From Amycolatopsis keratiniphila subsp. keratiniphila (GTDB taxonomy: Bacteria; Actinomycetota; Actinomycetes; Mycobacteriales; Pseudonocardiaceae), in contig NZ_LQMT02000017.1 in NCBI RefSeq assembly GCF_001620365.2, forward strand, positions 1-64,000: a stretch of 64,000 nt of DNA, read 5' to 3'. Positions 1,529 through 10,343 of this stretch are shown here, in pieces. The position numbers and the translations under genes are program-made. Under the pieces are notes generated by a model that made no database searches, was not told the origin of the DNA, and saw only the letters and a list, made by a program, of their open reading frames with translations. The number at the start of each line of letters is the position of its first letter. The first letter of the stretch is position 1.

Positions 1529-2824
1529 CTACTGCGCGGGCGGTGCCAATTCGACCCTGTTGCGGCCACCCTGCTTCGCCCGGTAGAGCGCGGTGTCGGT
1601 GGCGACGAGGAGGTCGTCGACGCTGGTGATGTTGGCCGCCGGGTACAGCGCCCCGCCGATCGACACCGTCAGGTCGGTCAGCACGGTGTCGCGATCGGGC
1701 AGCGCGACCGAGACCACCGCCACCTGGTGCCGGATCCGTTCGGCCACCTGGCGCAGCGTCTCCTCGCCGTGGATGTCCGGGATGACGATCGCGAACTCCT
1801 CGCCGCCCCATCGCCCGCAGACGTCCTGTTCGCGGACCTCGGCGCGCAGCGCGTCGCCGACCGCGCGCAGGACGAGGTCGCCGTTGGGATGGCCGTAGGT
1901 GTCGTTGATCGTCTTGAAGTTGTCGAGGTCGAGGAACAGCACGCCGAGTTTGCGGCCGGCGCGCGTGCGACCCAGCTGTTCTTCGGCCAGCTGACGCCAG
2001 CGGCGTTTCGTGACGAGACCGGTGGTGGCGTCGGTGTGCGCGTCGCGCCGGTACTGCGTCAGCAGCAGCCCGCGGTGCAGCGCGACCAGCGCGATGACGA
2101 CGCCGACCAGCACCAGCGGGTTGGCCTGGACGAGGACGACGGCCGTCACGAGGCCGAGGCCGAGCGCGCCAGCCTCGAGGATCTGATCGCCGAACCCGGA
2201 GAACAGCTCGCCGATCGATTTCGGCGGCGAAGAGAGCGCGATCGCGACCATCACCAGCACGGTGTTGATCGCCCAGCGCAACGCCGCGGCCACGATGATG
2301 ACGGCGAGATCACCCAGCCCGGCGAGCAACCCGGAGTCCGGTGCGCCTGGGTAGTGGCGCATCCCGAGGCTGAGGACGACGACGGCGGCCTGCGTGCCGC
2401 AAAGCACCGTCGCGGCGGAAAAGATCCACCGATGGGGGAGAACCGGCCGTTGGTGTGGCCAGATCCGCAGCCATGCGATGGTGTAGGTCACCACGACCAT
2501 CGCGGCGGCGAGCACCGGCGGCAGCGCGATGACGGCGGCGACGCTCCAGACCGCCTTGGTGTCGACGTAGGCGACCGACGGGGCCCTGTCGTACTCCCGT
2601 TGGCGTTCGATCTGCCGGGTGCCCTCGATCGCGATGGCCGCGCACAGCGTCAAGACGCCGAACCGGACGAGATCGGTACCGGTCACCGGGACCAGCCGGG
2701 CCGTGGCGGCGGTCGAGAGGACTGCGATGAGATTCACGACCAGGACGTAGGAACGCACAGGTCGCGGCAGGCTCCACAGGTGCCAGGCCCTGAGCCGCCG
2801 CGCGCCGCCGAGTCGTCCGTCCAC
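1529..2824 (-). CDS. Membrane-bound GGDEF diguanylate cyclase
   Basis: 431 residues. Residues 1-250 form several hydrophobic helices (a membrane sensor region without a recognised name), followed by a GGDEF domain. The active-site signature GRWGGEEF lies near residue 340, and an RxxD inhibitory site (REQD) sits exactly five residues before GGEEF. The enzyme should therefore make c-di-GMP from GTP and be subject to product inhibition. FLDLDNFKTINDTYGH is the usual substrate/metal segment. The N-terminal region shares TDLVRFGV and a similar helix pattern with the cyclase at 15556-17076, so the two are paralogues. The start is next to a divergent 340-bp gap that holds the D-N-N-W minigenes. Confidence 0.9.
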   Translation of the reverse strand: MDGRLGGARRLRAWHLWSLPRPVRSYVLVVNLIAVLSTAATARLVPVTGTDLVRFGVLTLCAAIAIEGTRQIERQREYDRAPSVAYVDTKAVWSVAAVIALPPVLAAAMVVVTYTIAWLRIWPHQRPVLPHRWIFSAATVLCGTQAAVVVLSLGMRHYPGAPDSGLLAGLGDLAVIIVAAALRWAINTVLVMVAIALSSPPKSIGELFSGFGDQILEAGALGLGLVTAVVLVQANPLVLVGVVIALVALHRGLLLTQYRRDAHTDATTGLVTKRRWRQLAEEQLGRTRAGRKLGVLFLDLDNFKTINDTYGHPNGDLVLRAVGDALRAEVREQDVCGRWGGEEFAIVIPDIHGEETLRQVAERIRHQVAVVSVALPDRDTVLTDLTVSIGGALYPAANITSVDDLLVATDTALYRAKQGGRNRVELAPPAQ

Positions 2825-2953
2825 GCACCCTCTTCCGTCGGTGATCTACACCGTAATCGAACCGGGACTGCGACGACCGTCGTTGTCCGGACGATGAGAG
2901 TCGTGGCCCCGAATTCCCCCGGACAGCCCAACCGAAACGACGGAGGTGCACCG

Positions 2954-2974
2954 ATGCAGGACAACAACTGGTGA
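2954..2974 (+). CDS. Minigene 1, hexapeptide MQDNNW
   Basis: A six-codon frame, MQDNNW then TGA, preceded by the Shine-Dalgarno sequence GGAGGTG at 2942-2948, five bases before the ATG. It carries the first of five copies of the 12-mer GACAACAACTGG found in 200 bp. The frame is open further upstream, but no other start has a ribosome-binding site. Its function is unknown. It is the shortest of three related minigenes in this gap and looks like a truncated form of the following two. Confidence 0.45.
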   Translation: MQDNNW

Positions 2975-3017
2975 GTCTTTTGCCGGATGAATCGCTATTT
3001 CGAGGGAGGTGAACGAC

Positions 3018-3065
3018 ATGCGGGACAACAACTGGACCACTCGGCGTGACAACAACTGGACGTGA
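3018..3065 (+). CDS. Minigene 2, 15-residue D-N-N-W-T repeat peptide
   Basis: Encodes MRDNNWTTRRDNNWT, a near-perfect tandem of RDNNWT joined by TR. The Shine-Dalgarno GAGGGAGGT at 3002-3010 lies seven bases before the ATG; a GTG at 3009 is in frame but overlaps the Shine-Dalgarno. The next minigene, 93 bp on, encodes the same peptide with different codons (CGG/CGT, ACC/ACG, ACT/ACC, CGG/CGT), which argues that the peptide itself is kept. No leader, signal peptide or cysteine is present. Possible roles (RiPP-like precursor, signalling peptide, leader controlling translation) cannot be separated from sequence. Confidence 0.55.
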   Translation: MRDNNWTTRRDNNWT

Positions 3066-3110
3066 GTGATCTCGCCCACGAGCGCGGCTTCGCGAAGGGA
3101 GGTGAACGTA

Positions 3111-3158
3111 GTGCGTGACAACAACTGGACGACCCGTCGTGACAACAACTGGACGTGA
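3111..3158 (+). CDS. Minigene 3, identical 15-residue D-N-N-W-T repeat peptide
   Basis: GTG start followed by the same residues as minigene 2 (RDNNWTTRRDNNWT), then TGA. The Shine-Dalgarno GAAGGGAGGT at 3095-3103 is a near copy of the one before minigene 2, so the repeated unit includes the translation signal. Four synonymous and no non-synonymous differences separate the two coding units, apart from ATG versus GTG. The frame ends 4 bp before the stop codon of the convergent MFS gene. Confidence 0.55.
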   Translation: MRDNNWTTRRDNNWT

Positions 3159-3162
3159 TGTG

Positions 3163-4422
3163 TCAGGAACCGTGTTCGCCAACGGGTGTCGTCCCGCCGA
3201 CCGGACCCACGGGATCTTCGGGTTCCTCAGGGCCGCGGCGGGACGACACCGCCCGTGACCAGCCTGCTCCGGCGACGAGCGCGACCACCACGCCGGCGAT
3301 CGCCGCGACGGTGACCACGGTGGTCGGCGCGACGATCTGGGCCAGCAGCCCGGCCAACGCGATCCCCGCCGCCTGAGCCGCCCGCAACGCCGCGATCGCG
3401 ACCCCGATCACCTGGCCGCGATGGGCGGGCGGCGCGGCGAGGCTGTACTGCGTCTGCGTGATCATGTCGTGCGCGGAGAAGACACCCGAGATCGTCCACA
3501 GCACGACGATCGTGACCAGGCCCGGAGCCCAGCCGGTCGGGATCAGCACCAGGCTGCTCGCCACCGTCAGCGCGCCCAGCACCCGGACCTGCCGTTCGCG
3601 CGGGATCCGGCTCAGCAGGAGACCGCCGAGCACCGAACCGACGGGATTCGCGGCCAGCAGCCACGGCAGCGCGCCCGCGCCGCCCAGTTCGGCGGCGACC
3701 GGGACGGCGAGGCCCTCGGGCACGACGTAGAAGCCGCAGCAGCAGGCGATGAGCAGCAGCCAGCGCAGTTTGCGGTCGCGTGCCACCAGCCGGCAGCCCT
3801 CGATCAGCGACGGACGTTCGTGATGGGCGGGTGCCGAGGGCGGGAAGCGGTCGAGCCCGAAACGGAGCATGAGCGCCGAAAGCGCGAACGTTCCCGCGTC
3901 GATCAACAGCGCCCCGGGGACGCCGAGCCCGGTGACGACGGCTGCGCCCGCGCCGAAGCCCACCACGAGCCCGGCCTGATACGTGGACGAGATGACGGCC
4001 TGGCCGACGACCAGCCGGTCCGGATCGAGCAGATCCGGCAGCATCGCCTGGCGGGCCGCGTGGAACGGCCCGGCCATGAGCTGGACGAGGAACAACAGCG
4101 CGGCCGCGGCCGGGAGCGGAAGACCGGGCACCGCCATCAGCGCGATCAGGACCGCGCGGCCGACGTCGGTCACCACCATCACGGTGCGTCGCGAGAACCG
4201 GTCCGCGACACCGCCCAGCGCGCCGCCGAGGAGATCGGGCACGAAGGTCAGCGCGTACGCCGCCGAAGCCCAGCCCGCCGACGACGTCCGGTCGAACACC
4301 AGCACCGTGAGCGCGACCCTGGCCAGCTGGTCGCCGGCGACCGAGAGCAGATGCGCGAGCCAGATCCGGCGGAATCCGGCGACCGCGAAGACGCTGCGGA
4401 ACGACGCCGCTCGGGCTGGCAT
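3163..4422 (-). CDS. Major facilitator superfamily exporter
   Basis: 419 residues with twelve predicted membrane helices. It begins FRSVFAVAGFRRIWLAHLLS, and the first cytoplasmic loop contains GGVADRFSRRTVMV, the MFS motif A (G-x-x-x-D-R-x-x-R/K). It belongs to the MFS_3/EntS-like group of small-molecule exporters. I chose the ATG at 4422 (MPARAASFRS) because an in-frame start at 4554 would run across the start of the divergent gene at 4542. There is no clear Shine-Dalgarno; a perfect 9-bp inverted repeat sits two bases upstream of the start. Substrate unknown. It converges on the D-N-N-W minigenes. Confidence 0.82.
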   Translation of the reverse strand: MPARAASFRSVFAVAGFRRIWLAHLLSVAGDQLARVALTVLVFDRTSSAGWASAAYALTFVPDLLGGALGGVADRFSRRTVMVVTDVGRAVLIALMAVPGLPLPAAAALLFLVQLMAGPFHAARQAMLPDLLDPDRLVVGQAVISSTYQAGLVVGFGAGAAVVTGLGVPGALLIDAGTFALSALMLRFGLDRFPPSAPAHHERPSLIEGCRLVARDRKLRWLLLIACCCGFYVVPEGLAVPVAAELGGAGALPWLLAANPVGSVLGGLLLSRIPRERQVRVLGALTVASSLVLIPTGWAPGLVTIVVLWTISGVFSAHDMITQTQYSLAAPPAHRGQVIGVAIAALRAAQAAGIALAGLLAQIVAPTTVVTVAAIAGVVVALVAGAGWSRAVSSRRGPEEPEDPVGPVGGTTPVGEHGS

Positions 4423-4541: not shown

Positions 4542-4832
4542 ATGTCGCATTCACTGGGCCCGCTGGCGAACAACCTCGCCGCCTACGCCATCTACTCGAC
4601 CGCGCAGACCGAGATGCGCCACGCCTACAAGCTGATCGAGGCCGGCGACTACCTCGGCGCCGCCGCGGAGATCGAGTCCGCCGCGCACGCCGCCGAGGTG
4701 CTCGCCCGCGCCACCTCCGAGCTGGACGCCGAGCGTTCGGAACGATGGCTCAGAGTCGTCGTGGCGCGGAGGAGGTTCGCCGACCAGGCCCGGGCGCGGG
4801 CGTCGGACACCGCGCTGGCCCTCGCCGCTTAA
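4542..4832 (+). CDS. Small helical protein of unknown function
   Basis: 96 residues, preceded by AAGGAACGGAG, a good Shine-Dalgarno seven bases before the ATG. The protein is Ala-, Glu- and Arg-rich and predicted almost wholly helical, with a two-helix hairpin feel (HAYKLIEAGDYLGAAAEIE, then a second amphipathic helix around AERSERWLRVVVARRRF). No membrane segment or signal peptide. I do not recognise the family. Its end overlaps the 3' end of the convergent GlxA gene by 4 bp. Confidence 0.6.
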   Translation: MSHSLGPLANNLAAYAIYSTAQTEMRHAYKLIEAGDYLGAAAEIESAAHAAEVLARATSELDAERSERWLRVVVARRRFADQARARASDTALALAA

Positions 4833-9152: not shown

Positions 9153-10343
9153 ATGACGACCGAGGGTCCCATCCTGCACGCCGACCTGGACTCGTTCTAC
9201 GCGTCGGTCGAGCAGCGTGACGACCCGAAGCTCCGCGGGCGGCCGGTCATCGTCGGCGGCGGGGTCGTGCTGGCCGCCAGCTACGAGGCGAAGGCGTACG
9301 GCGTGCGCACGGCGATGGGCGGCGGCCAGGCGCGGCGGCTGTGCCCCGACGCGATCGTGGTCCCGCCCCGGATGCGCGCGTACTCGGCGGCGAGCAAGGC
9401 GGTTTTCGAGGTCTTCGGCAACACGACACCGCTCGTGGAAGGCATTTCGATCGACGAGGCCTTCCTCGACGTCGGCGGGCTGCTGAAGATCGCGGGCACA
9501 CCGAGCCGGATCGCCGCGAAACTGCGGAAGGACGTCCTGGAGCAGGTCGGTCTGCCGATCACCGTCGGCGTCGCCAGGACGAAGTTCCTCGCGAAGGTGG
9601 CCAGCGGGGTCGCGAAACCCGACGGCCTGCTCGTCGTGCCACACGACAAGGAGCTGGAGTTCCTGCATCCGCTCCCGGTCGAGCGGCTGTGGGGCGTGGG
9701 CAAGGTGACGGCGCGGAAGCTCCGCGAGCGTGGGGTGACCACGGTCGGGCAGATGGAGGGTTTCGGCGAGAAGGAACTCGTCCGGATGCTCGGCCGCGGC
9801 GTCGGCGCCCATCTGCACGCCTTGTCCCACAACGACGACCCGCGTCGCGTGCAGACGGGTCGCCGCCGCCGGTCCATCGGGGCGCAGCGCGCGCTCGGCA
9901 GCAGGCCGCGTTCGCCCGCCGAGCTCGACGCGACGTTGCTGACGCTGGCCGATCGCCTCGCCCGCCGCCTGCGTGCGGCGCACCGGGTGTGCCGCACCGT
10001 CGTGCTGCGGATGCGATTCGCCGATTTCACCAAGGCGACGCGTTCGCACACCCTCATGGAGGCGACCGAACAGACCGGCGCGATCGTCGCCGCGGCGCGT
10101 GACCTGCTCGCCACGGCGAGACCGCTGATCGACGAACGCGGTCTCACACTGATCGGGCTCGCCCTCACGAACCTGTCGAAGGACGACGCGATCCAGCTGG
10201 CGCTGCCGTTCGGGGCGAAACCTAGGGACGCGCTCGACTCGACGCTCGACACCGTCCGGGACCGGTTCGGTTCGAAGTCCATCACGCGCGCGGTGCATCT
10301 GGGGCAGGTCGAAGAGCCGTGGGTGCCGCTCCTGCCGGACTGA
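9153..10343 (+). CDS. dinB: DNA polymerase IV
   Basis: 396 residues, Y-family polymerase. The N-terminal palm begins ILHADLDSFYASVEQRDDP with the first catalytic Asp. GISIDEAFLDVGG contributes the second acidic pair, and VGVARTKFLAKVASG-VAKPDG is the thumb/HhH segment. A little-finger domain occupies the C-terminal 120 residues. Translesion, error-prone synthesis is the known family role. The start was set at 9153, directly after a perfect LexA box, so SOS induction is very likely. Confidence 0.95.
   Translation: MTTEGPILHADLDSFYASVEQRDDPKLRGRPVIVGGGVVLAASYEAKAYGVRTAMGGGQARRLCPDAIVVPPRMRAYSAASKAVFEVFGNTTPLVEGISIDEAFLDVGGLLKIAGTPSRIAAKLRKDVLEQVGLPITVGVARTKFLAKVASGVAKPDGLLVVPHDKELEFLHPLPVERLWGVGKVTARKLRERGVTTVGQMEGFGEKELVRMLGRGVGAHLHALSHNDDPRRVQTGRRRRSIGAQRALGSRPRSPAELDATLLTLADRLARRLRAAHRVCRTVVLRMRFADFTKATRSHTLMEATEQTGAIVAAARDLLATARPLIDERGLTLIGLALTNLSKDDAIQLALPFGAKPRDALDSTLDTVRDRFGSKSITRAVHLGQVEEPWVPLLPD

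Follow-up and report, generated by a model that had tools for sequence, protein, structure and literature searches.

A minigene array flanked by GGDEF and MFS genes

The stretch of Amycolatopsis DNA analyzed here (64 kb, referred to as the window) contains three tiny open reading frames (ORFs) in tandem on the plus strand, each with a Shine-Dalgarno (SD) sequence of its own. Minigene 1 (2954..2974) runs from an ATG start to a TGA stop, encodes MQDNNW and is preceded by GGAGGTG (2942..2948). Minigene 2 (3018..3065) starts with ATG, encodes the 15-mer MRDNNWTTRRDNNWT and is preceded by GGGAGGTGA (3004..3012), and minigene 3 (3111..3158) encodes the same 15-mer from a GTG start and is preceded by AAGGGAGGTGA (3095..3105). 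All three boxes contain GGAGGTG and end 5–6 nt 5' of the start codon. The frames and peptides had been reported in a first-pass annotation made from the sequence alone, and their exact positions were reproduced, as were the four synonymous changes and the change of start codon that separate minigenes 2 and 3. The five copies of the 12-mer GACAACAACTGG counted in that annotation were also recovered. Based on shuffled sequences, 0.01 matches to GAYAAYAAYTGG would be expected in the 64 kb window, compared to the 5 that were found, and GAYAAYAAYTGGAC occurs four times in the 9.09 Mb genome, with every copy inside the array.

Beyond what the annotation had claimed, the array occupies a conserved slot with a GGDEF gene on one side and a major facilitator superfamily (MFS) gene on the other. 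The GGDEF gene (1529..2824, minus strand) encodes a membrane diguanylate cyclase (Pfam PF00990, E 2.6e-40) in which R331, D334, G340, G341, and E343 are invariant across 14 orthologs. These residues match what we take to be the motifs of an active, feedback-inhibited diguanylate cyclase, and the protein sequence is consistent with such an enzyme. Its membrane part is predicted to be helical (mean pLDDT 82); no Pfam domain was matched in the N-terminal part, and a Foldseek search of the predicted membrane domain against the PDB gave no significant match (best E 0.34). The MFS gene (3163..4422, minus strand) encodes an efflux-type transporter (Pfam PF07690, E 1.1e-28), for which the best NCBIfam match is the H+ antiporter model TIGR00900, at a score under its cut-off, and the stop codon of this gene begins 5 nt past the last base of minigene 3. 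A 96-aa gene (4542-4832, plus strand), which is divergent from the MFS gene, has no Pfam or NCBIfam match, has homologs in two further close neighborhoods, and is unrelated to the repeat ORF of locus L101 described below.

The array is on the plus strand and both flanking genes are on the minus strand, such that it is divergent from the GGDEF gene and convergent with the MFS gene. Of the new signaling, leader, or precursor peptide system that the first-pass annotation had proposed, the new peptide system is supported by the sequence conservation presented below. A leader peptide acting in cis would be a short ORF upstream of the regulated gene and on its strand; the array has this arrangement with neither flanking gene, which makes such a role unlikely.

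The GGDEF and MFS genes were found on both sides of the array in 16 of 16 neighborhoods (15 fetched from relatives and the window) and are the sole genes adjacent in all 16. The outer genes vary; the gene beyond the MFS gene is present in 13 of the 16 neighborhoods and encodes a Ser/Thr kinase where scanned. A subset of the neighboring proteins (25 in total, five from the window and 20 from relatives) was searched with Pfam, and no hit to a P450, ThiF-like, radical SAM, or YcaO protein was obtained. The earlier statement that no tailoring enzyme is adjacent thus agrees with this search, in which none was recognized. Judged from the sequence, the minigenes are tiny, strongly initiated coding units that are conserved, as is the three-part arrangement to which they belong.

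A consensus scan of positions 2700-3500 returned no sigma-70-type promoter and no terminator on the array strand, and its single terminator-like site is on the minus strand. A 15-bp perfect inverted repeat with arms 36 nt apart (3185-3250) is located within the 3' end of the MFS gene and is possibly the terminator of the array transcript. Three boxes are found on the plus strand upstream of minigene 1, with recurrence limited to some relatives: CCGTAATC (2851..2858; CCGTAACC in relatives), located between the GGDEF gene and minigene 1, GACGATG (2890..2896; GACCATG in some relatives), and CCCGGACAGCCCA (2918..2930), located 5' of minigene 1 and matched in 12 of the 25 upstream regions compared. 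The spacing between the first two boxes is 39 nt in the window and 41 nt in four relatives. A search of positions 2500-3600 with Rfam at E values up to 1 yielded two matches, both under the gathering scores.

Selection on the encoded peptide

Across 36 Amycolatopsis arrays, 282 SD-preceded ORFs encoding 5–16 residues were identified, every one of them on the array strand. A DNNW motif is encoded by 271 of these and a near variant by three (MRDNHW, MRDDNWTR, and MCDNTWPR); the remaining eight use other starts and are mostly out of frame. Copies were then compared within 15 long arrays, a comparison in which the DNNW bases are identical by construction. Identity between copies is 0.23–0.43 in the spacers, which resembles chance, and 0.43–0.60 in the SD region. 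Within the start codon it is 0.99 at T, 0.98 at G, and 0.48 at the A/G position, and within the Arg codon it is 0.99 at C, 0.97 at G, and 0.39 at the third base.

The third positions of the DNNW codons are nearly fixed, with one change in 741 Asp/Asn codons drawn from units that were chosen for DNNW. Near-fixation would not be predicted from the neighboring genes (GAT 11%, AAT 8%) but is nearly what the genome's own genes for ribosomal proteins and elongation factors would predict (GAT 2%, AAT 0%). Likewise, CGT has a share of 43% in the minigenes, 26% in the ribosomal-protein and elongation-factor genes, and 6% in the neighbors, such that minigene codon usage is closer to that of the former genes than to that of the latter. 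We interpret this bias as the codon preference of genes with a very high rate of translation; the near-fixed DNNW codons may in part also reflect recent duplication of copies and conversion among them.

In 22 genes that encode the repeats within a single ORF, synonymous differences (Sd) amount to 210.5 versus 17.5 non-synonymous differences (Nd), with four of the 22 genes free of any difference and with repeat units picked by peptide motif, a choice that lowers Nd. When four pairs of orthologs were compared over the whole ORF, pN/pS was 0.15–0.29, from few changes. In the MRGNSWD minigenes of locus L218, Ser is encoded by AGC or TCC, and the residue is thus kept across a change of two bases or more.

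The first-pass annotation had interpreted the pattern as selection on the peptide, and the wider comparison agrees with it: frame, SD sequence, start, and stop are kept in 36 genomes, wobble positions drift as the residues stay, and diverged loci alter the peptide in frame and alike within one array. The sequence part of the check proposed with that interpretation, which asked whether homologous regions lack the frames or show equal synonymous and non-synonymous change, did not refute it. The comparisons therefore argue that selection acts on the translated peptide. The clearest sign that the unit is the peptide, and neither the 12-mer nor the RNA, is the repeat-ORF architecture described below.

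Distribution of DNNW arrays

The pattern RTGCRNGAYAAYAAYTGG is present in 36 of 80 Amycolatopsis genomes, compared to none for a reversed-pattern control, and among the matches listed the true matches cluster at one place. These 36 genomes are exactly those encoding a cyclase at least 70% identical to that of the window. Family-wide, the DNNW pattern was detected in 44 of 390 genomes, representing 5 of 46 genera. Among the matches listed, the 36 Amycolatopsis arrays contain from 2 to 20 minigenes in tandem, the units of long arrays are mostly 65–75 bp, and the commonest peptides are MRDNNWTR, which is the most frequent, the 15-mer, MQDNNW, and MRDNNWT. Minigenes normally have their own SD sequence, an ATG or GTG start, and a stop; the start codon is lost in at least two copies. 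In two genomes of another genus, a DNNW minigene is located beside MFS sequence at loci L073 (~9159-9200) and L074 (~9205), where no cyclase gene was found.

Other peptides encoded in the same slot

Diverged slots were sought upstream of cyclase genes that had been located by the cyclase and not by the peptide. Minigenes are present at eight of nine diverged Amycolatopsis loci, L071 being the one without. The arrays encode MADNNW/MSDNNWSR, MSDNNW (two loci), MRDVNW/MRKDVNW/MRDVNWTTK, MRDVNW/MRDDVNWTR, MRDTNWTVR/MRDTNW, MRNNTW repeats, and MRENNW/MRKQENNW, and in each the copies share one core variant. The peptide MRENTWRENTWK was found at three Kutzneria loci and one locus of another genus, and the variant cores at more distant GGDEF loci are DVNW, DTNW, ENNW, NNTW, and RENTW. 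In a family of a different order, the cyclase search matched 18 of the 373 genomes of the class, and all 17 loci fetched, from 12 genomes, contain minigenes. The peptides encoded there are MRDNTWS/T, MRDTTWS, MRDTNWVLRDTNWSW, MRDNKWSR, MRENCW, MRANSWD, MRGNSWD, MRDSTWN, and MRDNNWT.

In other members of the cyclase family, the slot is filled by one ORF with 2–8 internal peptide repeats: STDWTF (six copies), PTDWT (eight), DSNWH (three to eight), RPNDWR (two or three), RPAEWR (two), GNEW (six), SEWH (four), and SNNW (four). At locus L101 of Amycolatopsis genome G039, for example, a 94-residue ORF with eight PTDWT repeats (530-814, reverse complement) lies between the GGDEF and MFS genes. Across relatives, the same slot contains from one to twenty tiny peptide genes. 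No model was matched when eight repeat peptides were searched with Pfam and seven with NCBIfam; the minigene peptides are too short to scan. The L101 cyclase represents a second class in Amycolatopsis, which occurs in many genomes of the genus. At locus L127 of Amycolatopsis sp. CA-126428, an SD-preceded MCGRDN was read by eye in the gap between the GGDEF and MFS genes.

In a quick cyclase tree, built with SH-aLRT supports and no bootstrap, the types associated with RDNNW-like minigenes in both families form one clade (SH-aLRT 100), and most repeat-ORF types fall into a group of 12 rows (SH-aLRT 88), with the DSNWH type apart. The paralogs from the window's genome are on long branches, and their placement is unsure. 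A profile search of contigs with the GGDEF alignment was dominated by general GGDEF motifs, with five of the best 80 loci spanning most of the query.

Association of the peptide with the MFS gene

In total, 74 loci were collected and 71 were scored, excluding L093 and L211, which are at contig ends, and L124, which has tandem GGDEF genes. A peptide is encoded at 49 of 49 loci with an adjacent MFS gene versus 14 of 22 loci at which no such gene was found (Fisher p 3e-5; 2e-4 if L126, at which the single peptide is doubtful, is counted as having none, giving 48 of 49). As the peptides were scored visually and at related loci, these p-values are a guide only. Locus L276 had entered the set via the peptide pattern rather than the GGDEF search. 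At L122, the adjacent 389-aa gene encodes an MFS protein by Pfam; this check of adjacent genes for distant MFS proteins covered L122 only. No peptide was found at eight GGDEF loci (L071, L084, L085, L086, L092, L116, L119, and L125), and a rescan of the slots at the peptide-less loci gave no further ORF with Trp repeats. In genomes G330 and G336, a peptide is accompanied by MFS sequence (not called as a gene in G330) but by no GGDEF gene, and at a second locus of G337 (L076), where the DNA is partly masked, a minigene occurs without a GGDEF or an MFS gene. At L124 (1257-7256, Pseudonocardia kunmingensis), four consecutive GGDEF genes of the family are located beside an MFS fragment, and no peptide was recognized.

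Comparison with known systems

Genes of similar size are described for biarylitides, in which bytA encodes a five-residue precursor in 18 bp and escapes annotation (PMC13417212). For microcin C, another study reports that ORFs of 2–8 codons can be translated repeatedly by one ribosome without release, with in vitro recycle numbers of 71 for mccA, 30 for A11, and 6 for A15, the latter two being longer versions, and that MccC extrudes the product (PMC6495379). The minigenes resemble both, as tiny genes of precursor size: microcin C (mccA heptapeptide minigene, MccB, and MccC) has a precursor of about seven codons, and 6–8 residues are common in the arrays. Also as in microcin C, a pump gene is part of the cluster, and the MFS gene that adjoins the array would provide export here. 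The microcin C pump MccC belongs to the MFS class, and the precursor carries a C-terminal Asn for adenylation. In contrast, no ThiF-like MccB adenylyltransferase is among the 25 neighboring proteins, the DNNW-type peptides lack a C-terminal Asn and end mostly in W, T, R, S, D, or K (the exceptions that end in N are MRDTTWN, MRDSTWN, and MCGRDN), as many as 20 genes occur in tandem, and the commonest partner is a diguanylate cyclase. Biarylitides have a Tyr/His/Trp crosslink pattern, with a crosslinkable aromatic pair within the five-residue precursor, whereas peptides of the MRDNNWTR type contain one aromatic residue per motif and no such pair, the arrays are multi-copy, and no P450 is among the 25 proteins.

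Yeast alpha-factor and multi-core RiPPs carry many copies of one short motif per locus or ORF, which raises dose. Here, a short motif is similarly multiplied at one locus or in one ORF, but many copies are cistrons in their own right, and neither a leader nor a maturation protease was recognized. GGDEF proteins with N-terminal membrane sensor domains of the MASE type share with the present cyclase a membrane part and an active-looking GGDEF domain; the latter differs in that its N-terminal part has neither a Pfam nor a significant PDB match and in being paired with a peptide gene. In sum, individual features are shared with microcin C and with biarylitides, but the system lacks defining features of both and fits no known family tested here. 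Among the matches listed in a search of the open-access literature, no description of such peptides or of peptide-GGDEF-MFS modules was present. We rate the system as new as a genetic module, with a function that we propose from its gene content.

Proposed function and alternatives

The best explanation, to which we assign a probability of roughly 0.4, is that the minigenes belong to one module with the GGDEF and MFS genes, in which the MFS protein would export a peptide signal and the cyclase would sense it. Given their SD sequences, frame, codons, and copy number, the minigenes would supply short formyl-Met peptides in bulk, with the dose raised by tandem copies or by tandem repeats in one ORF. 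The MFS protein would export these peptides and the membrane domain of the cyclase would sense them, and c-di-GMP would thereby report the local peptide level. In keeping with a signal, a receptor, and an exporter, a small peptide gene is found beside a transporter and a membrane sensor in conserved synteny. Several observations count against the signal model: a usual secretion signal would not fit within peptides as short as those of the minigenes, the peptide occurs at 14 loci where no MFS gene was found in the stretch, no peptide was seen at eight GGDEF loci, the cyclase is missing beside the peptide and MFS sequence of G330 and G336, both partners are missing beside the L076 minigene, and no significant PDB match was obtained for the predicted membrane domain of the cyclase. 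In addition, co-location does not by itself demonstrate interaction.

The main alternatives are two other functions for the peptides, each of them unlikely. If the peptides were precursors of a RiPP-like secreted bioactive product, the MFS protein would serve as exporter and self-protection, the modifying enzyme would be unlinked, and the cyclase would regulate production only. The five- and seven-residue minigenes of biarylitides and microcin C, the latter with its MccC pump, provide precedents, and multi-copy Trp motifs such as STDWTF, PTDWT, DSNWH, and RPNDWR resemble multi-core precursors; on the other hand, none of the four enzyme types searched for gave a Pfam hit among the 25 neighboring proteins, only the GGDEF and MFS genes are adjacent in all 16 neighborhoods compared, and the residue after Trp is variable (T, A, S, I, N, and others). 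If the peptides instead acted within the cell, as small ligands controlling the on or off state of the cyclase (or of the MFS protein), with MFS efflux lowering their level, the lack of a secretion signal and the 14 loci that pair a peptide with a GGDEF gene and at which no MFS gene was found would be accommodated, and a high dose driven by copy number would suit a stoichiometric ligand. However, peptide presence tracks MFS presence, which an internal ligand alone would not need.

A function at the level of RNA or translation, in which ribosomes, fMet-tRNA, or specific tRNAs would be titrated by the array or its RNA would be antisense to the MFS-GGDEF strand, is considerably less probable. Up to 20 SD sites per array, and arrays that aim at the 3' end of the MFS gene, would fit such a role, but the spacers are unconserved, and the amino-acid motifs survive synonymous change, as for the Ser codons AGC and TCC of L218, and also survive the switch to single repeat ORFs. 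Moreover, the RNA of the window's array (2930-3170) folds worse than 200 of 200 shuffles (z +2.37), and a structured-RNA reading of this array was rejected. We give very little credence to the 12-mer being an array of DNA-binding sites with incidental reading frames. The near-invariance of GAC AAC AAC TGG, including the third positions of the 741 Asp/Asn codons in DNNW-chosen units, would be expected of such sites, but a similar excess of GAC and AAC is seen in ribosomal-protein and elongation-factor genes, stops occur at several distances, starts drift between ATG and GTG, and in-frame variants replace the 12-mer in other lineages.

Paralogous modules in one genome

The window's genome contains four GGDEF-peptide-MFS modules with four different peptides. 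The three additional modules encode MRGQNW, MNGRED, and MSRDF/MSSRDF/MSSRDF, two of these three having been read by eye from the DNA. Under the proposed signal model, such paralogous modules, each with its own peptide, would constitute separate channels within a cell. We tentatively suggest, with somewhat less confidence than for the signal model itself, a new form of cell-to-cell signaling in which private short-peptide words, encoded by tandem arrays of autonomous genes of 6–8 codons or by repeat ORFs, would each have their own membrane diguanylate cyclase and exporter, providing several parallel peptide-to-c-di-GMP channels per cell (four here) with the dose tuned by gene copy number. Many diguanylate cyclases have no known sensory input, and the modules offer a candidate input that is encoded in the DNA beside the enzyme and, at 6–8 residues, is directly synthesizable. 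They also represent a class of genes that annotation likely misses, in which as many as 20 autonomous genes for hexa- to octapeptides form an array. In streptomycetes, c-di-GMP is reported to act through BldD on development and natural product synthesis (PMC4151990, PMC7026642).

Patterns for MRGQNW, MNGRED, and the MSRDF type matched 23, 19, and 20 of the 80 genomes of the genus, respectively, with none for the reversed-pattern control; these patterns show conservation weakly because most of the matching genomes are close relatives. All 24 of the loci fetched for the additional modules, one of which is from the window's own genome, lie between an MFS and a GGDEF gene. MSSRDF is encoded in 19 of the 20 genomes with the MSRDF type and MSARDF in the other (G031), in which the slot contains five tandem minigenes encoding MSARDF, MAARDF, MQARDF, MSARDF, and MTARDF. 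In the more distant genomes G070 and G079, MRGQNW is kept through two synonymous changes.
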